Assembly (NCBI GenBank): GCA_943788195.1
Contig: CALSPH010000001.1
Location: 1,725,884-1,789,883 of the forward strand
Length of the DNA stretch: 64,000 bases
Direction: 5' to 3'
Source: an uncultured Bacteroidia bacterium
Lineage (GTDB): Bacteria; Bacteroidota; Bacteroidia; NS11-12g; UBA955
Position numbers and translations under genes: made by a program. Below the pieces are notes generated by a model that did no database searches, had not been told where the DNA came from, and was given only the letters and a program-made list of their open reading frames with translations. Positions 27,766 through 62,562 of the stretch are shown one piece after another; position 1 is the stretch's first letter; every line of letters begins with the position of its first letter.

Positions 27766-29097
27766 AATAGTGTCCTAAACGATTTTAAATAACTCAAATA
27801 GTCTTATTTCTATTGGGTTTCGCTTACTGTTTCGTCATTTTTAAAATAGTACCCCCTGTATTTCCTTTTGAGGTGGTGGATGTTTGTTCTCAAAAGGTTG
27901 ATCAAGCCATTTGATTAAATCTACTTTTACAAATAAATTAAGCCTTATAAATGCGACCAGATTTGATAAATACCATTTGTGTTTTGCTATTGCTTTTAAT
28001 GCCTTTAGGACAAGTATGGTTATAAGTGCAGTCCATATTTGGATCATTACGGCATTTTCACTAGTGCCAATAAAGGACTTAATGTGTAAGAGTTGCTTTA
28101 TCTCTCTAAAAAATATTTCCACTTGCCATCTAGCCTTATAAAGCTCACTTATCGTGTTTGCTGTCCAAGACATTTGATTTGTAATTACCTCTATTACCTG
28201 CTGGTTTTCATCATCCCATATGGCCACTCTTCTTAGCTTCTTTGAGTATTTCTTTTTAGATTGTAAACCAGTGAGCTTAATGATTTCATCTTTTAGGATA
28301 TGCTCCTGTTTTCCTACTGGCAGATCGTTTTCTTTAATTGTAATAAATTGGATGTTTTCTTTATGCCTAATTACAAAAAATACTCCTTTGCTGTCCCAGA
28401 CATCCAACAAAGAAAGATCATTGTTGAAACGGTCAGCTACAATCACACTCCCTTTCAATAATGGGATATCATATGCCCCTTTATTATCTGCAGTTTTGCC
28501 ATCAGTAATATTCACATATGCCGGTAAATTACCATCATAATCTAATAGTGTATGCATTTTTATTGCTCCTTTCGAGGTTTTGTATTTTGCCCAATCAAAC
28601 AAGCTAAGACAAAGACTAATTGTAGTAGCATCTAATAATAAGATCTTTGATTTTATTCTAAACTTTACACGCTTTAAAGATGCTTGCTGTCCTAAACTAT
28701 CTAACAAACAATAGTAGTAATCTCTAAAGAGTTCCCAGCTACGATGTTTGTTTTGATAACTTAGAGTAGATTTAGATGGAGCTTTAATCATACCCAAATG
28801 GGATAAGTTGCCTGTGGCTGAACGAAGACCATTGCTTATATCCCGAACAGACTGGCTTTTTGCAAACTGGCAAAATAACATAGAGACTAAATGAGACCAA
28901 CTAGTAAAACCCTTTTGATGCTTATCACTTTCGTGAGTATTTACTAGTGTTTTAAACTTTGAGCGATCTAATCTGGATATTATTTGAGAGAATAAGGTTA
29001 AATTTGTCATCGAGAAAGGTTTTTTTTGTTATGCAACTCAAAGATAATTTGAGATACAGAATTCCTTTCTCTTTTTTTTAACGTTTAGGACGCTATT
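27766..29097 (-). mobile_element. IS4-family insertion sequence, complete
   Basis: About 1332 bp, bounded by near-perfect terminal inverted repeats: AATAGTGTCCTAAACG at 27766 and, on the other strand, AATAGCGTCCTAAACG ending at 29097. One intact transposase gene lies inside. No clear target-site duplication is seen in the flanks, so either the duplication has decayed or the borders were rearranged. The left border abuts the start codon of the small membrane protein and the right border supplies the stop codon of the gene at 29093-29458. Confidence 0.85.
27841..29010 (-). CDS. IS4-family transposase
   Basis: A 389-residue DDE transposase. An N-terminal domain (LTLFSQIISRLDRSKF, GFTSWSHLVSMLFCQFAKSQSVRDI) precedes the RNase-H-like core with LLLDATTISLCL (first Asp), SVIVADRFNNDLSLLD (second Asp), and YKARWQVEIFFREIKQLLHIK, the Y-x2-R-x3-E-x6-K signature of the IS4 family with the catalytic Glu. 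Length and motifs are complete, so it is probably active or recently active. Confidence 0.92.
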   Translation of the reverse strand: MTNLTLFSQIISRLDRSKFKTLVNTHESDKHQKGFTSWSHLVSMLFCQFAKSQSVRDISNGLRSATGNLSHLGMIKAPSKSTLSYQNKHRSWELFRDYYYCLLDSLGQQASLKRVKFRIKSKILLLDATTISLCLSLFDWAKYKTSKGAIKMHTLLDYDGNLPAYVNITDGKTADNKGAYDIPLLKGSVIVADRFNNDLSLLDVWDSKGVFFVIRHKENIQFITIKENDLPVGKQEHILKDEIIKLTGLQSKKKYSKKLRRVAIWDDENQQVIEVITNQMSWTANTISELYKARWQVEIFFREIKQLLHIKSFIGTSENAVMIQIWTALITILVLKALKAIAKHKWYLSNLVAFIRLNLFVKVDLIKWLDQPFENKHPPPQKEIQGVLF

Positions 29098-29458
29098 GGT
29101 AATTTATAGGCATTAACTCTACTTGTTTGAAATTTTGAACTATTGAACTTGTATCCATATACAAACTGAATCCATTGTATTGTGGGTCATTTCGTTCAGA
29201 GTCTGGAATTATTCTTTTTTCTACTTCTTCAGTATTTAGTGGATAACAGTAATACCCAGATGGTTTGGGTTTGTTAGGTTTGGAAACAATTATTCGTTCT
29301 CCTTTTAGAATAATTGCTTTGTCACCACCAGTATATGGAGCCATATAATGAGTCAAATAGGAAATTGGGGTGTCTCGAAGTGATTCAAAGACTTCTCCAC
29401 CAGTTGGGTAATTTGAGTTCCCATTAAAAATTCTATTTGCTAATTTCTTAATGTTCAT
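29093..29458 (-). CDS. hypothetical protein ending in the IS4 border
   Basis: 121 residues, MNIKKLANRIFNGNSNYPTG through FKQVELMPINYQ, hydrophilic with no signal peptide. I do not recognise a family. The TAG stop at 29093-29095 lies within the IS4 inverted repeat, so the native C-terminus may have been lost and the present end created by insertion. A start at 29458 is the only reasonable ATG. It could be the N-terminal part of a longer accessory protein. Confidence 0.5.
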   Translation of the reverse strand: MNIKKLANRIFNGNSNYPTGGEVFESLRDTPISYLTHYMAPYTGGDKAIILKGERIIVSKPNKPKPSGYYCYPLNTEEVEKRIIPDSERNDPQYNGFSLYMDTSSIVQNFKQVELMPINYQ

Positions 29459-29498
29459 TTTGTGTTTTATTCCACATTGGGCACAACTACTGGCTATC

Positions 29499-29526
29499 CT
29501 CCACGTCCATTTTGTTGGACGTGGAG
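29499..29526. repeat. perfect 11-bp inverted repeat
   Basis: CTCCACGTCCA and TGGACGTGGAG flank a 6-base loop. There is no T run, so it is not a clear terminator. It lies in the 340-bp gap between the gene at 29093-29458 and the Fic gene; the only other structure in that gap is repeat copy A. Confidence 0.7.
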
Positions 29527-29680
29527 AATATTTGCCCTATACGCAAAAGAAATGTAAAGATTATATGCAGAATGTCAAATACTTACAATTAATAAAAAAG
29601 GCTGTTGTTACTTTTAAGTATTTGAAAAGTAATTATAAGTAATTAAAAACGACATATATTTCAGTTAATGGTTTAGGTTA

Positions 29681-29790
29681 GGAAGTTCCTTTGCTGGTGC
29701 GAACTTGTAGTTCGTACCAAAAATGTTTCTTTTTTAAGTAAGCAGTCCGAACTGCGTTAAGCTAAGTTAGAACTAGCAAGGAAAACAGTG
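29681..29790. repeat. dispersed hairpin repeat, copy A
   Basis: About 110 bp. Within it, GGTGCGAACTTGTAGTTCGTACC is an internal palindrome, and the outer arms TTCCTTTGCTGG... and ...AACTAGCAAGGAA can pair, so the whole element folds into one long imperfect hairpin. Copies B (31006) and C (32677) share the core CCGAACT...AAGTT-x-GAACTAGC. It sits downstream of the Fic gene in the minus-strand reading direction. Confidence 0.8.
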
Positions 29791-29800
29791 TTGTGCCTTG

Positions 29801-30754
29801 TTATTTTAATAAATAGATTGTTTTGTTTTTCTCCCCTCTTTTTTCAAATAAACCTAGTTCAATCCCTTTCTTTAAATCTCTGCTTGCTGTCGCTGAAGAA
29901 ATGTCTTTAAATATATTCATATAATCTTTTCTTGTAAATTCTGTTTTATTTAATGAAGCATAATATTCCAATCTATCTCTTTCGTTTAATGTTCGATTGT
30001 TGAAATCCAGTAATTCATTTATTGAAATGTCAATAACGTTTAGCATGTATTCAATGAATTTTGTTGATTTTCCAGATTTATCACTTTCAGCTAGGGCTTT
30101 GTAATATTTTTCTTGGTCGTTACTGATTAAAGTTTCAAATGGTAAAAACTCAAATACTGGATATTTTCCCATTAAAATTAAAGTTTGCCATAATCTTCCC
30201 ATTCTTCCGTTTCCATCCATAAATGGATGTATAAATTCCATTTCGTAATGAAAGACACAACTCTTTATTAACTCAATTTCATCAGAGTTTTTTAAATATT
30301 GAAAAAGGTCTTTCATTAAGTATGGGACATTGTCAAAAGGTGGTGCTAAATGTTCAACTTTTGAACCTTTTACTATTCCGACACCTTGAGTTCTATATTT
30401 TCCAGCATTTTCTATTAGATTTCCCATTAAGCTTTTATGTGCTTTCAAAAAGGACTTTTCATTAGAAGGATCGTATCCTTTTAGGTTTTCATAGATTTTA
30501 ATAGCATTTAAAACTTCAAGAACATCTTTTTTTGGGCCGATTACTTTTTTGTTTTCAAGAAGTGCTGTTATTTGTTCTTCTGAAAGTGTGTTCCCTTCTA
30601 TTTTTAAAGAAGAATGAATAGTTTTGATTCTATTCTGTTTTCTTAACTTGGGAGAAGGTTTATTTAATAAGTTGGCATTTACTTCTCCTAATTTCTCTGA
30701 AATTGAAGTAATTAATTGTAAAATGGAAGATGTTATTTCGTAAGGTGGTTTCAT
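29801..30754 (-). CDS. Fic-family protein with C-terminal winged helix
   Basis: About 317 residues from MKPPYEITSSIL. The Fic core motif is complete, HPFMDGNGRMGRL (H-P-F-x-x-G-N-G-R-x-x-R), placing it among proteins that transfer AMP or related groups onto target hydroxyls. An inhibitory helix motif S-L-K-I-E-G-N lies N-terminal (class II arrangement), so the enzyme is probably self-inhibited. The C-terminal 80 residues (FTRKDYMNIFKDISSATASRDLKKGIELGLF) form a winged-helix DNA-binding domain. The start at 30754 is preferred to 30793 because the leader DNA is an operator-like palindrome. It stands alone between repeat copies A and B, a typical accessory gene. Confidence 0.88.
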   Translation of the reverse strand: MKPPYEITSSILQLITSISEKLGEVNANLLNKPSPKLRKQNRIKTIHSSLKIEGNTLSEEQITALLENKKVIGPKKDVLEVLNAIKIYENLKGYDPSNEKSFLKAHKSLMGNLIENAGKYRTQGVGIVKGSKVEHLAPPFDNVPYLMKDLFQYLKNSDEIELIKSCVFHYEMEFIHPFMDGNGRMGRLWQTLILMGKYPVFEFLPFETLISNDQEKYYKALAESDKSGKSTKFIEYMLNVIDISINELLDFNNRTLNERDRLEYYASLNKTEFTRKDYMNIFKDISSATASRDLKKGIELGLFEKRGEKNKTIYLLK

Positions 30755-30757
30755 CTT

Positions 30758-30791
30758 GATAGTGTCATATGATACTATCAAAGATACTATC
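30758..30791. promoter_or_regulatory. operator-like repeats before the Fic gene
   Basis: Three copies of GATAGTRTC-type half-sites: GATAGTGTC (30758-30766) and GATACTATC (30771-30779) form a near-perfect palindrome around ATAT, and a second GATACTATC follows at 30783-30791. They lie immediately before the start codon at 30754. The Fic protein's winged helix is the obvious candidate binder (autoregulation); this is inference. Confidence 0.6.
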
Positions 30792-30815
30792 ATTTATCTT
30801 AATCGAAAAGAATTT

Positions 30816-30925
30816 CTCGAGGTTCTACCTCGGGGTCAAGAGGAAAGTTTGAAAACCTAAGGTTTTCATAAAACTAAAAATAAGTTTTTTCCGCTTGATA
30901 CCTCGATGGCTCTGCCTCGGGGTAG
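30816..30925. repeat. imperfect long inverted repeat
   Basis: Arms CTCGAGGTTCTACCTCGGGG with TCAAGAGGAAAG, and CTTTTTTCCGCTTGATACC with TCGATGGCTCTGCCTCGGGG, can pair imperfectly; the centre carries a small palindrome GAAAACCTAAGGTTTTC. It contains no ORF of note. It looks like a degenerate MITE or repeat unit between the Fic gene and repeat copy B. Confidence 0.55.
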
Positions 30926-31005
30926 TTCATTTTCTGTAAAGAATGTGATTTTATTGGGTGCATGAGTCCACCTGAACAGCGTATTCCTGCCTTTGTAAGT
31001 GAGAG

Positions 31006-31077
31006 TTTGCTGTTTGTATCAAATCTTTTTAAAGTAAACAGTCCGAACTACGTTGCACTAAGTTCGAACTAGCCGGG
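31006..31077. repeat. dispersed hairpin repeat, copy B (internally deleted)
   Basis: TTTGCTG...TATCAAA...CTTTTTAAAGTAAACAGTCCGAACT...GCACTAAGTTCGAACTAGC matches copies A and C but lacks about 25 bp of the first palindrome. It lies between the Fic gene and the terminator of the next gene. Confidence 0.75.
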
Positions 31078-31104
31078 GGTTGATGGTTACTAAATTAACC
31101 CATT

Positions 31105-31136
31105 AAAAAAAAGGTCATCAGTTTACTGATGACCTT
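31105..31136 (-). terminator. terminator of the coiled-coil protein gene
   Basis: AAGGTCATCAG and CTGATGACCTT (31111-31136) form an 11-bp perfect stem around TTTA, followed on the minus strand by eight T residues. Confidence 0.9.
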
Positions 31137-31156
31137 CAACTAACTTTTGGTGCTTA

Positions 31157-32530
31157 TCAGGAAGTAATTAATAATTTTTCGATTTCCTGAGCGGAATCTG
31201 CTTTTTTTAGTGCTTTTTCCAAATCCTTGTTTTTTTGATCAAACAACTCAATGGTTCTGGTATTTAGCTTATTCGCTTTTATAAGGATTGCATTTTGATC
31301 TTCTATTTCCTTTGTGTTTTTCAGCTGATCCAAATAATGGTCTAGCAAAGTTTTATAAGCCTCGTAAAGCGCCTTTCTTTTTGTTTTATAAACATTACTG
31401 CCCATGGCCGAAGTGGCAATAGGATCTATTACCCTAAATCTGGATTCTATGGCTTTCCTGTTTTTACCCAATTCTGCCATTAGTTTTTTGTTCTGGGCAA
31501 TTGCTTTGTTTCTCTTTTCTTTGGCAATTCTTTCAGCTTCTATTCTTGCTAGACGTTCTTTTTCTTTACGTTCTTTTTCTAAACGTTCTTTTTCCTTACG
31601 CTCAGCCTCTAATTTTGCTAAACGTTCTCTTTCCAGTCTTTCTGCTCTGGTTTCTTGTTTATCCAATAATTTAATTCTGAAGGCTGACCATTCATACTTG
31701 TTTTTTGGATAGGATAAATCTCCCGGCAAGGCATCTCCCAAATTGGTATTTGTAAAATGTTTATTAAACGGTTCGTACAATCCAGGGTTAGCATCACTTC
31801 TCACTTTAAATGGCAAATCGAGCAGAGCTTCGGTATTTCCCGCAGCTGTATATTCTTTTATTTTAGCATAAGTCGCTAATTGTTCTGGATCAGCTTCAAT
31901 CTTCTTTTGAATATCACCGGTTTGTGTATTTCTTACAATATACTTAACCAAAAACCCATGATCATAAGTCATGATCATCTCCGTATTACCTTCAATCAAT
32001 TTAATAATGCCATCCAAATAACCTTCTGAATTAGATTTTCCATTTAAGCTTACTCCTGACATCTTAAGACTAAAAGCACCAGTAACTACGTTATTGGTAA
32101 AGTTTAATTGAATAGTTTCCTTTTTTCCATTGCTGTAAGCATCTATTCTCCATGCACCATTAGGATTTCCCTTAGAGTAATTTGCTAAACACGTAGTTTT
32201 TATTGTTTCGCCTCGGTTATTTATATTTAAAACAGATTTCCAAAGTCCATTTTTTAGATTATTGCTGTAGTTACCATTAATTGACAAATTTATTGTAACT
32301 CCATTATTAGCAACCTTTCCGGCATAAGTAAACTTACCTTTTCGGATTCGCTTATAATCATCATTTTCATAATATCCATAGGTGGCTTTTCCTGTTAACA
32401 TGTGATACGGAACCTCAGCTTCATGACACTTTAAGCCATAGTTTCCGCTATAAGATTTTAACGTTTGTCCATTTGCTATTTGAGTGAATGCAAATACAGA
32501 TAGAGCTATTGATAGTAGTTTTGTTTTCAT
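31157..32530 (-). CDS. secreted protein with MORN-like repeats and charged coiled coil
   Basis: 457 residues from MKTKLLSIALSVFAFTQIANG, a clear signal peptide; the upstream ATG at 32599 is rejected. Residues about 25-190 contain repeated short beta segments (NLKNGLWKSVLNINNRG, KGNPNGAWRIDAYSNGK, EGYLDGIIKLIEGN) similar to MORN or 'antitoxin-component YwqK-like' repeats. A highly charged single helix follows at about 285-345 (ERERLAKLEAERKEKERLEK), then a helical C-terminal region. No enzyme motif is present. The function is unknown; it lies between repeat copies B and C and has its own terminator. Confidence 0.75.
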   Translation of the reverse strand: MKTKLLSIALSVFAFTQIANGQTLKSYSGNYGLKCHEAEVPYHMLTGKATYGYYENDDYKRIRKGKFTYAGKVANNGVTINLSINGNYSNNLKNGLWKSVLNINNRGETIKTTCLANYSKGNPNGAWRIDAYSNGKKETIQLNFTNNVVTGAFSLKMSGVSLNGKSNSEGYLDGIIKLIEGNTEMIMTYDHGFLVKYIVRNTQTGDIQKKIEADPEQLATYAKIKEYTAAGNTEALLDLPFKVRSDANPGLYEPFNKHFTNTNLGDALPGDLSYPKNKYEWSAFRIKLLDKQETRAERLERERLAKLEAERKEKERLEKERKEKERLARIEAERIAKEKRNKAIAQNKKLMAELGKNRKAIESRFRVIDPIATSAMGSNVYKTKRKALYEAYKTLLDHYLDQLKNTKEIEDQNAILIKANKLNTRTIELFDQKNKDLEKALKKADSAQEIEKLLITS

Positions 32531-32676
32531 TCTGTTTATATTTTTTCTTGTGCAAACTAAGAGGTTTTTTTGAAATAAAAAATATTTTTCTTGCACCACT
32601 ATTGATGCTTATGTTTTTAACATCACATTCGGCAACTGGTTTGTTAAATTTATTATAAGTAACGAGCTAACCATGT

Positions 32677-32758
32677 AAGTTCCTTTGCTGGTGTGAACTT
32701 GTAGTTCGTACCAAAATATAGTTGTCCGAATTGTGTTGCACTAAGTTCGAACTAGCGG
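32677..32758. repeat. dispersed hairpin repeat, copy C
   Basis: AGTTCCTTTGCTGGTGTGAACTTG and TAGTTCGTACCAAAA match copy A with one difference in the palindrome, then TTGTCCGAATTGTG and GCACTAAGTTCGAACTAGC match copy B. It lies just downstream of the nuclease gene on the minus strand. Confidence 0.8.
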
Positions 32759-32781
32759 GGTGCTATGCATTATACACATTG

Positions 32782-33642
32782 TTATCTTGCGTTTTCTTTT
32801 TCTATTTCAATTCTCGTTTCTTTTAACCTGTGAATTACTCCATTTTCTAATGAAGATGAATTTAAATCGGTCTCAAATATTCCTGCAAATCTGTAAAGTC
32901 TAAATCCAAGATTATCTATACTTCTTGGAAATGTTATCCGCTTCACTAAATTTGAAGTTACTGCTTTAAACCATTCTTCATATTTATCTGGATTCTTACA
33001 CTTTTCAGTTATTACTTTTCCGTCTTTGCTGATTTGATTATCCCATTCTTCATTTTCGTAAAATTTTGGAAACCATAAATTGTGATTTGGATAAACTTTA
33101 CTTTTAAACCAAGCTTGCTGGACAGATATATAATTTTGCCCTAAGCAATTACAAGCATCTACTATTTTTCTAAAAGCTGGACGTTCTTCAACGTCTAAAT
33201 ATCCTTTCTCACGGTAATAATTCGGATTAAACTCTTTATCTAAATCCCATGATTCCCATTCTTTTTTTTTCTCTAAAATTTCAATCTTAGCGGTTATTTC
33301 CAAAATCAAATTAGCAATTTGGTTGTTTATTGAGTCTAAATCTTCCGTAATTTCAATCCGACTTATATGATGGTCTGTTGCTTGTATTATATCAGTTTCT
33401 CTGTCAATATCTAAATCGACTTGCTTGTTATGAAAAGGCTCATCAATTTCAATATGTAACTGTATTTGTGGAAAATACATATCTGTCAAAGCATGACCTT
33501 CTGGACGATTCACATATTGCTGTGTTACAAATTTTATATCTGTTCGATTTAACATATGGTAAATTCGAGTTACGACATAATTTTCGTAATTCTTCTTATT
33601 TGTCTTCGCTATTTGACGAATTATGTAATCTCTTTTTGTCAT
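32782..33642 (-). CDS. AbaSI/PvuRts1I-like modification-dependent endonuclease
   Basis: 286 residues from MTKRDYIIRQIAKTNKKNYE. The N-terminal half resembles the Vsr-like nuclease domain of AbaSI/PvuRts1I enzymes: YVVTRIYHMLNRTDIKFVTQ, RPEGHALTDMYFPQIQLHIEI and DEPFHNKQVDLDIDRETDI, with the acidic residues and histidine spaced as in that family. The C-terminal half (NLVKRITFPRSIDNLGFRLY, RFAGIFETDLN) fits the SRA-like base-flipping domain that recognises 5-hydroxymethyl- or glucosyl-cytosine. The role would be cleaving modified phage DNA without a partner methyltransferase, and none is adjacent. Assignment rests on remembered family sequence, not on a search. The longer start at 33729 falls in a repeat and is rejected. 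Confidence 0.68.
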   Translation of the reverse strand: MTKRDYIIRQIAKTNKKNYENYVVTRIYHMLNRTDIKFVTQQYVNRPEGHALTDMYFPQIQLHIEIDEPFHNKQVDLDIDRETDIIQATDHHISRIEITEDLDSINNQIANLILEITAKIEILEKKKEWESWDLDKEFNPNYYREKGYLDVEERPAFRKIVDACNCLGQNYISVQQAWFKSKVYPNHNLWFPKFYENEEWDNQISKDGKVITEKCKNPDKYEEWFKAVTSNLVKRITFPRSIDNLGFRLYRFAGIFETDLNSSSLENGVIHRLKETRIEIEKENAR

Positions 33643-33701
33643 TTTATTAATGAAAGTTAACGGTCTAGTACATGAGAAATAGAGTATTAGAAAACAATGA
33701 A

Positions 33702-33723
33702 CCTGCCCGTCCGGCAGGCGGGC
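33702..33723. repeat. GC-rich palindromic repeat
   Basis: CCTGCCCGTCCGGCAGGCGGG is a compact imperfect palindrome, much more GC-rich than its surroundings, of the kind found as REP-like elements in Bacteroidota genomes. It overlaps the false upstream start of the nuclease gene. Confidence 0.6.
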
Positions 33724-33779
33724 TTTCAAGTTTGCACTGAGCCAAAACGTTGTATTTTGTTTTTAATTTATTCATTCTT

Positions 33780-33868
33780 AAAAGCCAAATCTACGATTTG
33801 GCGGTGTTGTAAATAGCACTGAACTTTCGTTAACCACCGAACGCCCTATTTGCTATATACATCTTAAT
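33780..33868. repeat. hairpin-forming intergenic element upstream of the nuclease gene
   Basis: GCCAAAT-CTACG-ATTTGGC (33784-33802) is a small hairpin; it is followed by CACTGAACTTTCGTTAACCA and CCGAACGCCCTATTTGC. It differs in sequence from repeat copies A-C but occupies the same kind of position at the end of the cassette-like series. The rest of the 430-bp gap up to 34072 is AT-rich with no supportable gene and probably includes the left end of the IS110 remnant. Confidence 0.5.
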
Positions 33869-34072
33869 ATTGCAATATATTATATTAGCCATTAAATAAA
33901 AAGAACCAAAGAGAGGAATAAGGTTATTATATACGCAGAATCTACAGACTTAGTCAACATTGAAAACCCCCTCTCTTATCTACCTTTATTTCGCACAGTT
34001 GTTAGCGGCAAATTGACCTCGTTTCTAAGTAGTAGAAAGTAAAGTAGTTGGCTCTTTAAAATATTAAATATT

Positions 34073-34590
34073 ATGAACGAAAGTACAAAATTTTACGGAA
34101 TTGACATCAGTAAAGATGTGTTTGATGTTACGGATCAAAATGATATCCATCATCAATTCAGCAATGACTACAAGGGTTTTAAAAAGTTCAACAAGCTATT
34201 GGACAAAAATAGTCACTGTGTGATGGAGGCAACAGGCTATTACCATTATAAACTGGCCTATTTTCTTCAAGAGAATGAGGTGCTGGTCTCAGTTGAAAAT
34301 CCATTGTCAGTAAAGCGGTTTATTCAGATGAAATTATCAAAAATAAAAACGGATAAGAGTGATTCTAAAATGATTTGCAAGTATGCAGAAAGTGTAGAAC
34401 TGAGGTTGTGGGAAGGCGAAAGTAAAGATCAGCAAGAGTGCTTGCAAATGACGCGTATCCTGAGTGTTTACACAAAGCAGAGCACCATGTTAAAAAACAA
34501 GATACATGGTGAGGAGGTTTGGTAGAGCCAAGCAAGGTGGTTTTAAAGTCGCTAAAACGCAGTTTAAAAATGATAGAAAAGGAACCTCTA
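34073..34590 (+). pseudogene. IS110-family transposase, truncated and frameshifted
   Basis: The N-terminal DEDD domain of an IS110 transposase: FYGIDISKDVFDVTD (first acidic residue), NSHCVMEATGYYHYKLAYFL (E), and KIKTDKSDSKMICKYAE (D-x-x-D). The frame breaks near 34520 (HGEEVW then stop), continues one frame over as EPSKVVLKSLKRSLKMIEKE, and stops matching at about 34590. The C-terminal Ser-containing domain (transposase_20) is missing. It is an inactive fragment left in a pile of mobile-element debris. Confidence 0.82.
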
Positions 34591-34840
34591 GTAGATCATA
34601 GTAAATTTATTTATAGTCTTTCTAAAAAACGTAATTTTCACTCCTATGCAGGATTCATTGATAACCATCGAATTGAATGCGTTATTGACTTTTCATGTCA
34701 AGATGATTCATTGTTTGGGTATTTTACATACACGTATGGGAACAATGATACTTTCAAGCTAAGAGGTACTTGTGAAAACGTCAATACGCGACACGGTGGA
34801 CCATGGTTACATTTTGATGTTTTTGATAATAGGCATGGAT
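34591..34840 (+). pseudogene. C-terminal fragment of an unidentified gene
   Basis: In the frame entered after the IS110 break, the sequence changes to VDHSKFIYSLSKKRNFHSYA, GFIDNHRIECVIDFSCQDDS, LFGYFTYTYGNNDTFKLRGT and WLHFDVFDNRHG, ending at the border of the IS3 fragment at 34836. It looks like the end of a soluble beta-rich protein of Bacteroidota, unrelated to IS110, joined by recombination. No family is recognised. Confidence 0.45.
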
Positions 34841-35020
34841 AATAATGCGGATCTTTTCTTCTGATGAATACTTCTTTCTTGTCTTTCGTTTTAAGTCACT
34901 GATTAATGAACTTGTGCTTTTTTTGTTCGTCATTTAGATTTCTTTTAAGGTTATAAATTTATTAAAACCTCTATATTAAATAATTAACCTAATTAGTGCA
35001 CTTTTTGCTGACGGTATACA
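34836..35020 (-). mobile_element. IS3 left-end fragment (terminus at 35020)
   Basis: 185 bp that I read as identical to 62233-62417, the leader and first codons of OrfA in the intact IS3 element. It includes the terminal TGTATACCGTCAGC on the minus strand, ending at 35020. The rest of the element is missing. It provides the last seven codons and stop of the endonuclease gene. Confidence 0.9.
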
Positions 35021-35843
35021 TACTTGTATCCACCAATGTCGGCATCCAAGTCAAGCCAATACTATCACCCCATAGATATTCAGCTAATTCAGGATGGTCA
35101 ATAAAAGGATTGCGGTTGTGCTGGTAAAAGCTATCGATGATGTTATTCCTATTACGTTCCCAGTTGCTAACTGTATCAATCCTATTCCAATGAAGAAGTG
35201 TATTTAAGCGAGCTTGTAAGGGACTTTGGTCAGCATTATTAAGTAATGTATTAGTCAACTCTAAATCAGGCTCAGAGCCTTCTCCTTCGTATCTGACAGC
35301 CATATAAAATATCATTCTAGCTACATCGCCCTTAACTGCGTCAGGTGGTTCAAACGTCCAGAAATTGGCATCACGTTTAGACCCTGTATTAAAGCCATTA
35401 TCTATTACATCTACACAAGTAATACAAGTATCAAAATTCCTATTATTCCTTGTGGAGTTGACACTAACATCGCAAGGTCTTAGGTGATGTACATCTGTTC
35501 CTGCACCATTGCTTGTACCAAAGTCTCCTCTAGATTTTGCCCAAACGTGTTCCCTACTCCAGCCAGCAGCACTGTTGTATTCTTGTGCAGCATCTACACT
35601 TCTCCCTGAATATAGTAGGATTACATTATTTGCATTTGCTGTATCTCTATCCGTATGCTTTAGTATGTCCCACACATCTGTCGATGATGAGGTATACGTA
35701 AATTCTGTATGATTTTTGATTATTTGGTTCAGTTCATACTTCAATGAATCATCAGACTTTTTATGAGCAGATAGATAGTAAGTACTATCCTGTGCAGAAA
35801 GTAAGTTTGAGATAAGGAGTAAAGCGAATACAATAAATTTCAA
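34989..35843 (-). CDS. endonuclease I family nuclease, C-terminus altered by IS
   Basis: 284 residues with signal peptide (FIVFALLLISNLLSAQ). The endonuclease I (EndA/NucM, His-Me finger) motifs are present: YSAAGW-type segment NSAAGWSREHVWAKS with the catalytic His, GTDVHHLRPCDVSVNSTRNN, and further down DAVKGDVARMIFYMAVRY. Non-specific extracellular DNases of this family degrade environmental DNA. The coding sequence runs into the terminal repeat of an IS3 fragment, which supplies the final residues VSKKCTN and the stop, so any native C-terminal (for example T9SS) tail has been cut off. The catalytic domain appears whole. Flanked by inverted IS3 ends. Confidence 0.82.
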   Translation of the reverse strand: MKFIVFALLLISNLLSAQDSTYYLSAHKKSDDSLKYELNQIIKNHTEFTYTSSSTDVWDILKHTDRDTANANNVILLYSGRSVDAAQEYNSAAGWSREHVWAKSRGDFGTSNGAGTDVHHLRPCDVSVNSTRNNRNFDTCITCVDVIDNGFNTGSKRDANFWTFEPPDAVKGDVARMIFYMAVRYEGEGSEPDLELTNTLLNNADQSPLQARLNTLLHWNRIDTVSNWERNRNNIIDSFYQHNRNPFIDHPELAEYLWGDSIGLTWMPTLVDTSMYTVSKKCTN

Positions 35844-61982: not shown

Positions 61983-62330
61983 CTAGTCGTCTCCATTTAC
62001 GTTTTTTTTCAAAGTTCTCACCTCTAAGGAGAGTTCAGCTACAAGCTCCTTCAAGCAATGGTTCTCTCCTTTGAGCTCTTGAACTTCAGAAGTATTAGCC
62101 TCACGCATTGTATCGCCTGCTAATCTGCGTTTTCCTGCTTCCATGAAGTCCTTACTCCATTTGTAATAGTTGGCCTGGCTTATGCCTTCTTTTCTGCATA
62201 ACTCCGCTATGGAGTCCTCTCCCCGAATGCCTTGGATAATAATGCGGATCTTTTCTTCTGATGAATACTTCTTTCTTGTCTTTCGTTTTAAGTCACTGAT
62301 TAATGAACTTGTGCTTTTTTTGTTCGTCAT
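61983..62330 (-). CDS. IS3 OrfA (helix-turn-helix protein)
   Basis: 115 residues: KKYSSEEKIRIIIQGIRGED, SIAELCRKEGISQANYYKWS is the transposase-8 type helix-turn-helix, followed by a leucine zipper (VQELKGENHCLKELVAELSL). It binds the IS ends and represses transposition. Its stop lies 14 bp before the orfB ATG, and the frame of orfB is open across the junction. Confidence 0.93.
   Translation of the reverse strand: MTNKKSTSSLISDLKRKTRKKYSSEEKIRIIIQGIRGEDSIAELCRKEGISQANYYKWSKDFMEAGKRRLAGDTMREANTSEVQELKGENHCLKELVAELSLEVRTLKKNVNGDD
62001..62007 (-). promoter_or_regulatory. -1 ribosomal frameshift site A-AAA-AAC
   Basis: Within a run of eight A near the end of orfA, the 0-frame codons AAA-AAC form the canonical slippery heptamer. 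Slipping back one base gives CGT-AAA-TGG..., open through to orfB without a stop, producing the OrfAB transposase. Confidence 0.85.
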
Positions 62331-62562
62331 TTAGATTTCTTTTAAGGTTATAAATTTATTAAAACCTCTATATTAAATAATTAACCTAATTAGTGCACTT
62401 TTTGCTGACGGTATACATTCAAAGCAAAAATCAAATAACCAATAAAACTAGAGTCGCTTAAGGATTCACCTTTTTTTGCATTAAAGAAGTAGCCCAAAAT
62501 AGGCTGATAAATCCAAATACCATTATTGTAATCTTCAACTTTTTAAATTTTCTGCATTAAGC

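Follow-up and report, generated by a model that had tools for sequence, protein, structure and literature searches.

How does a run of single genes on one strand, each followed by a similar hairpin-forming repeat, come to stand together in a bacterial chromosome? This question is raised by positions 29.7–33.9 kb of the stretch of DNA analysed here (the window, 64,000 nucleotides from the genome of an uncultured Bacteroidia bacterium), where genes for a Fic-domain protein, a coiled-coil protein and a predicted modification-dependent nuclease are accompanied by the repeats A, B and C (Table 1). Our data indicate that this segment is very likely a worn gene-cassette array without an integrase, whose units were probably captured singly by a site-specific recombinase in an integron-like manner. 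The sequence-only reading of the window had proposed an array that is integron-like or mobilised by miniature inverted-repeat transposable elements (MITEs). The former half of this proposal is strengthened by recombinase-linked sites, by units that have moved in relatives and by a platform in the same genome, whereas the MITE half is abandoned, as no dispersed copies were found in the genome, in the relatives searched or, by exact pattern and apart from one chance match, in the genome collection.

Table 1. Features of the array and its borders (window coordinates; aa, amino acids; ORF, open reading frame; IS, insertion sequence; R'' and R', ends of a site)
Feature	Position	Strand	Remarks
IS4-family transposase	27841..29010	-	NF033592, 2.5e-74; borders the array at one end
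121-aa ORF	29093..29458	-	no family match; may be a fourth cassette that the IS4 element has cut
Candidate cassette 5' end, upstream of the 121-aa ORF	29477..29487	-	GTT-GTGCCCA-A; relaxed pattern; low confidence
Site A	29683..29800	-	R'' C-AAGGCAC-AAC 29800-29790 directly after the Fic stop; contains repeat A; R' not recognisable
Repeat A	29683..29777	+	
Fic-domain protein, 330 aa, third cassette	29801..30793	-	stop at 29801; Pfam PF02661, 6.5e-20; PADLOC SoFic, 9.8e-46
Site B	30967..31096	-	contains repeat B; worn R'' (AAC 31088-31086) and R' (GTT 30977-30975); placed by eye; low confidence
Repeat B	30985..31073	+	
Secreted-looking coiled-coil protein, 456 aa, second cassette	31157..32527	-	stop at 31157; 5' border CGTT-ACTTATA-A at 32664; 3' border worn
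Site C	32653..32791	-	R'' C-GCAAGAT-AAC 32791-32781; 117-bp core with repeat C; R' CGTT-ACTTATA-A 32664-32653
Repeat C	32677..32756	+	
Nuclease cassette	32781..33661	-	GTT-AACTTTC-A (33661) to C-GCAAGAT-AAC (32791-32781); borders by homology to sites of L081/L090 and L091
Predicted PvuRts1I/AbaSI-like modification-dependent endonuclease with SRA domain, 286 aa	32782..33642	-	stop at 32782; Pfam PF21598, 1.1e-35, and PF18491, 4.6e-30; PADLOC mREase_II, 3.6e-90
Site D (attC-like)	33651..33873	-	R'-type end CGTT-AACTTTC-A 33662-33651; worn R'' (AAG for AAC) ~33863-33873
IS110-family transposase, truncated	34073..34525	+	PF01548, 1.5e-19; other end of the array

Four minus-strand ORFs lie between the IS4 element and the truncated IS110 element, encoding the 121-aa, Fic, coiled-coil and nuclease proteins. 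Coordinates and BLAST analysis confirmed the layout described earlier, in which single minus-strand genes are each followed by a repeat copy: A, B and C share one orientation and lie 3' of the Fic, coiled-coil and nuclease genes, respectively. The naming of a Fic gene and an AbaSI-like nuclease gene on this strand is borne out by Pfam and PADLOC matches; the 456-aa protein, formerly taken for a MORN protein, has no match in Pfam, NCBIfam or PADLOC. Pairwise BLAST comparison of the intergenic regions gave E values of 6e-14, 1e-13 and 1e-9 over 88–95 columns, and a 33-letter core pattern (up to three mismatches) matched three times in the window as compared to 0.00 times in 100 shuffles. The two palindromic blocks that had been attributed to all copies are only partly preserved, the left block surviving in A and C and being eroded in B. 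Likewise, copy A folds better than dinucleotide shuffles (z -2.8 and -2.0), whereas B and C do not. The three repeats are the inner parts of attC-like sites, and their GAACT blocks belong to this inner part rather than to the exchange point.

The trail to a recombinase was opened by locus L042 of genome G210, which holds the one relative of the window's nuclease (59% identity) among 394 other genomes sampled from the phylum. This relative lies between two copies of another repeat of ~130 bp, 1.7 kb from a gene for a 391-aa tyrosine recombinase; a group II intron reverse transcriptase is also close (L042:4345-5625). Relatives of the G210 recombinase (E <= 1e-60) were found in 112 of 395 genomes of the class, in contrast to the integron integrase IntI, which exceeds the curated cut-off in one of 390 (and in 105 of 395 genomes of the phylum). 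Among the 120 relatives listed, those with names belong to Flavobacteriia, e.g. Yeosuana, Cellulophaga, Lutibacter, Snuella and Tamlana, from which we take the class of the system to be Bacteroidia. At least 15 of the minus-strand recombinase matches, among the matches listed, end on their 3' side within 250 bp of the contig start, as if assembly had broken at repeats there.

In both sequence and fold, the solved structures nearest to the G210 recombinase are those of archaeal XerA proteins (5hxy, 4a8e), and model NF040815 (site-specific tyrosine recombinase/integron integrase) matches it with 216.7 bits at a cut-off of 220. Unlike these proteins, the G210 recombinase and others aligned with it head cassette arrays and carry an extra N-terminal domain of ~80 residues, predicted as beta-beta-alpha-beta-beta-alpha-beta in the structural model. 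This model has a predicted local distance difference test score (pLDDT) of 82 and a predicted template modelling score (pTM) of only 0.47; nearly all of the 50 Foldseek matches listed are tyrosine recombinases or their relatives. Xer-type recombinases also move small gene modules in plasmids, the pdif (XerCD) modules, which are framed by double-stranded 28-bp dif-like sites; here, by contrast, sites of ~140 bp stand behind each gene.

What do the loci behind these recombinases have in common? The survey covered 41 stretches 3' of the recombinase (432.5 kb), that is L042 and 40 further loci picked by eye for downstream room, some of them short. In locus L079, inspection by eye revealed that the ~ten opening bases of each unit recur, as their reverse complement, just ahead of the next site. 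The rule reads as follows: a cassette starts with GTT-N7-A and ends with C-N7'-AAC, where N7' is the reverse complement of N7 and specific to the cassette. Counting GTT...AAC pairs with a spacing of 250–4000 bp and exact reverse complementarity over the adjoining seven bases yielded 161 pairs in the 41 stretches as compared to 40–119 for 13 other cores. The fixed letters (left-hand A, right-hand C) were present in 82 of the 161 pairs, the next letter class in 15. For the fuller pattern with at most one mismatch (strict pairs), 92 were counted versus eight in reversed strings; in 83 of the 92 the longest ORF runs in the direction of the recombinase, and the median unit length is 929 bp. Strict cassettes, at least one each, occur in 23 of the 41 stretches. 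Tandem units of mostly one gene in one orientation beside a recombinase are thus a feature of these stretches as well as of a platform in the window's own genome, described below.

Sites run from the R'' end of one cassette to the R' end of the next and have a core of 114–121 bp in 45 of 71 contiguous cases. In 56 non-redundant sites, which had been chosen for [CT]AAC and GTT[AG], the letter after AAC is A in 55, and the letter before GTT is C in 55. The arms covary at offset 4 (647 paired cells as compared to 454 +/- 16; highest of 500 shuffles, 510), and this computed pairing supports folding of the site as an imperfect palindrome.

Site D ties the window to these loci. Aligned end to end, it is 96% identical over 141 and 88% over 138 columns to sites of locus L081 and 91% over 140 columns to a site of locus L090, and the R' end is placed alike in all of them. 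The 96% and 91% matches are sites that end the first unit behind the recombinase in two other genera: the former closes the first unit after the recombinase of L081 (N7 7/7), the latter a unit starting 114 bp after the recombinase match of L090 (N7 6/7, with A instead of C as right-hand letter). Thus, the hairpin D, which the sequence-only reading had set apart as a fourth, unrelated one, is a further site of this system, different in sequence from repeats A–C and homologous to the sites of L081 and L090. From its R' end, GTT-AACTTTC-A starts 19 bp before the ATG of the nuclease gene, and the nuclease stop overlaps C-GCAAGAT-AAC-A. The R'' flank of site C shares 90% identity over 29 bp with a site of locus L091, and the length of its core falls within the range typical elsewhere. 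The ends of the nuclease unit agree at N7 in five of seven positions and carry both fixed letters, a result equalled by 21 of 8820 random GTT x AAC combinations in the region. On the minus strand of 29.4–34.1 kb, CGTT[AG]-N6-A occurs only twice, at the starts of the nuclease and coiled-coil units; of the eight occurrences of C-N7-AACA, two fall at the stops of the nuclease and Fic genes. Sites of the system therefore stand behind each gene of the window array, as judged for D and C from homology and for A and B from the core that they have in common with C. As a separate observation, site D contains a 22-bp palindromic stretch, CCTGCCCGTCCGGCAGGCGGGC (33702-33723), where its three homologous sites have a gap.

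Do such units move? A unit of ~1.45 kb is 96.5–97.7% identical in loci L097, L099 and L111 of three families, with different flanks on both sides. Similarity ends no more than ~25 bp from C|GTTAGTGGCAA and from the following CGTT, some of the alignments being lengthened by a few bases of a similar site arm. Another unit is present twice in L097 (99.4%), and one is duplicated in tandem in L078 (99.7%). Swapping at constant borders, for which the sequence-only reading had proposed a test, is hence seen in relatives, i.e. in L097, L099 and L111, whereas none was seen in the window's own units.

The window's own genome also holds a platform. A related recombinase gene lies at 233.7 kb of the same contig (C1), ~1.5 Mb from the window array; its product scores 330.7 bits against the family alignment and is devoid of the N-terminal extension. 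Behind it follow six units with one main forward ORF each. With borders chosen by eye, their N7 matches are, in order, 7, 6, 6, 6, 7 and 7 of 7, and the left-hand letter is A in all six.

These features suggest how such arrays may be built. The R'' end of one cassette matches the R' end of the next in only 3.20 of seven positions on average (shuffled, 2.58 +/- 0.18), so the ten-base outer stem would be complete only in the circular cassette. The recombinase may act on the folded single strand of such a circle, where the ten terminal base pairs are complete, cut at or beside G|TT and insert the circle next to its own gene. In the finished array, each site would join the ends of two cassettes and be partly paired, which would make capture easier than loss. 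The window array could be a satellite that was inserted off-site or severed from a platform by rearrangement or IS elements and subsequently decayed. From the arrangement of these sequences we infer recombination by a non-IntI, integron-like system that differs from integrons in its recombinase and its DNA code. A wider proposition seems to us evenly balanced between true and false: Bacteroidia would possess an integron of their own, built on an XerA-like recombinase and a private 10-bp lock, GTT-N7...N7'-AAC with fixed A.C mismatches, in which only the free circle folds fully, so that capture is nearly one-way, and which supplies genomes with single genes, those for anti-phage enzymes among them, and gives rise to satellite arrays like that of the window. 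If so, a second recombinase lineage would run the same cassette economy, implying more than one origin or re-tooling of single-gene capture, single defence genes would have a route to circulate among Bacteroidia, and cassettes could be spotted in any genome by a simple text rule.

Several observations weigh against this reading of the window and of the system. The window contains 11 exact N7 pairs, none with the A and C letters on either strand; the nuclease pair reaches just 5/7, the ends of the coiled-coil unit 4/7 with one fixed letter off, and those of the Fic unit 1/7. We read the lack of a proper exact pair and the poor Fic and coiled-coil ends as decay after loss of contact with the recombinase. 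Among the four proteins of the window array, the nuclease alone has a relative encoded in the 41 stretches, and no swap of the window's own units was seen. Repeats A–C were found in none of the other genomes searched, hence they could not be compared directly with active sites, and the sites of the own platform gave no site-length match to repeats A–D. At that platform, the right-hand letter is C in just four of six units, and mismatched pairings of its ends agree at 1–6 of 7 positions, two of 30 reaching 6/7. No strict cassette was found in 18 of the 41 stretches (13 under 4 kb, five of 7.6–18 kb), among them L042, where the nuclease unit ends match at 6/7 with G in place of the right-hand C. 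Finally, pairing within arrays is slightly above chance, which leaves the one-way idea soft.

Could the array instead be a diverged remnant of a canonical integron with an IntI-type integrase, i.e. a cluster of attC sites lacking an integron integrase (CALIN)? We consider this improbable. Integrons are defined by IntI and GTTRRRY-type sites, and the two ends of one of their cassettes are complementary. The likeness is extensive: cassettes of one gene each follow one another in the same direction, every gene is followed by an imperfectly palindromic site, the exchange core starts with GTT, the ends of a cassette are complementary, a tyrosine recombinase stands at the head, arrays without an integrase occur, and some arrays have group II introns and IS110-family elements within or next to them. 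CALINs are moreover widespread, and integrons are reported from Bacteroidota in passages of PMC8618304; two of five papers (PMC8618304, PMC9668308, PMC8138268, PMC8352920, PMC8876359) mention integrons detected in Bacteroidota, the integrase type being unstated in the passages concerned. However, the scarcity of IntI in the class extends to the window's genome, where no match to the IntI model TIGR02249 exceeds the cut-off, in keeping with the earlier remark that no integron integrase is in view; among the IntI matches listed, that of genome G144 is the only one in the window's class. Integron integrases have a specific insertion in the catalytic domain, as stated in part of PMC8138268. Aligned to IntI4, the G210 recombinase has 27 aa where IntI4 has 70, a gap that in our reading of the alignment probably corresponds to this insertion, and the two TIGR02249 pieces matched by the own-platform recombinase skip model positions 178-236. 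The exchange in IntI integrons takes place within GTTRRRY, according to part of PMC8876359; here, GTTRRRY fits the R' end in three of 56 sites and RYYYAAC the R'' end in five, with none fitting both. The 10-bp cassette-specific complementarity with fixed flanking letters also sets the system apart, as this rule does not hold at 14 canonical IntI loci from other classes (7 of 100 pairs with the fixed letters), and its cassettes are located 3' of the recombinase gene, in the same direction as that gene. Without the IntI insert and with few sites fitting GTTRRRY, the system works in the manner of an integron but falls outside the definition of the IntI integrons. No account of cassette arrays behind XerA-like recombinases in Bacteroidota was found among the open-access titles and abstract beginnings listed.

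An accessory island assembled by homologous recombination or IS elements, with the repeats as crossover points and no dedicated recombinase, would account for the IS4 and IS110 elements at the ends, the decayed copies and the unpaired ends of the Fic cassette. Yet the border rule, the fixed orientation and the site architecture are held in common with recombinase-linked arrays, and a platform exists in the same genome, so that we give this scenario little credence.

Copy numbers speak to the remaining alternative. The 2.53-Mb genome contains exactly three repeats by pattern; with copy A as BLAST query up to E = 10, 12 of 15 matches were 14–23-bp fragments and the rest were the repeat copies. 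No copy was found in 69 relatives of the family (three mismatches allowed) or 107 of the order (one mismatch allowed), sets that contained no second member of the genus, nor in plasmids and viral contigs, and the sole exact-pattern match in the public genome collection is a chance one inside a gene that we take to be nuoN. The search of the genome and its relatives proposed earlier thus produced no copy outside a 3.1-kb stretch. Therefore, MITEs or repetitive extragenic palindromic (REP)-like elements lying between genes by chance are a very remote prospect: the repeats are indeed short, hairpin-forming and intergenic, with transposase genes on both sides, but they have no copy beyond these 3.1 kb save the nuoN-like match, they occupy the same side of each gene in the same direction, and sites D and C match cassette sites elsewhere. 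Copy number and position led us to reject this reading of the repeats. A role as terminators was rejected as well, since no T-run follows the hairpins (by eye) and Rfam gave no match up to E = 1 in 29.0–34.6 kb; paired hairpin ends of the IS605 type were dropped after sites D and C had been aligned with cassette sites.

The cargo of the integron-like arrays includes predicted defence genes. Among 72 cassette ORFs, single ones match profiles of type I restriction, BrxHI-, GajB-, reverse-transcriptase-helicase- and other defence-related systems (best 25 of 108), where one ORF can match many profiles, so that the matches are predicted names and not gene counts. Further ORFs match hydrolases, cyclases and nucleotidyltransferases (best 25 of 61 families). 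The clear candidate for defence in the window is the nuclease, a predicted phage-DNA-cutting enzyme; the Fic protein also scores on the Fic models of PADLOC.

Other mobile elements were encountered at the recombinase-linked loci. A stretch of L079 is 68% identical to the DNA overlapping the group II intron reverse transcriptase gene of L042, which is reminiscent of IIC-attC introns. In L087 (genome G164), a 1236-bp repeat with an IS110-family gene occurs 3' of the recombinase in two 100% identical copies, the first between two cassettes, and both start at an R''-like ATAAC. The IS110 fragment of the window shares 66% identity over 149 aa with the two IS110-family copies of L087.

At the IS4 end of the window array, two more strong palindromes (29495-29530 and 29575-29625) lie between the 121-aa ORF and repeat A; they are perhaps remnants of another site or of a cassette without a gene. 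The heptamer GTGCCCA at the candidate 5' end of the 121-aa ORF unit shares five of seven letters with GTGCCTT, the complement of the Fic R'' end (29790-29800), despite their expected membership in different cassettes. Outside the array, a 186-bp stretch is duplicated at 100% identity 27.4 kb apart (34836-35021 and 62233-62418).

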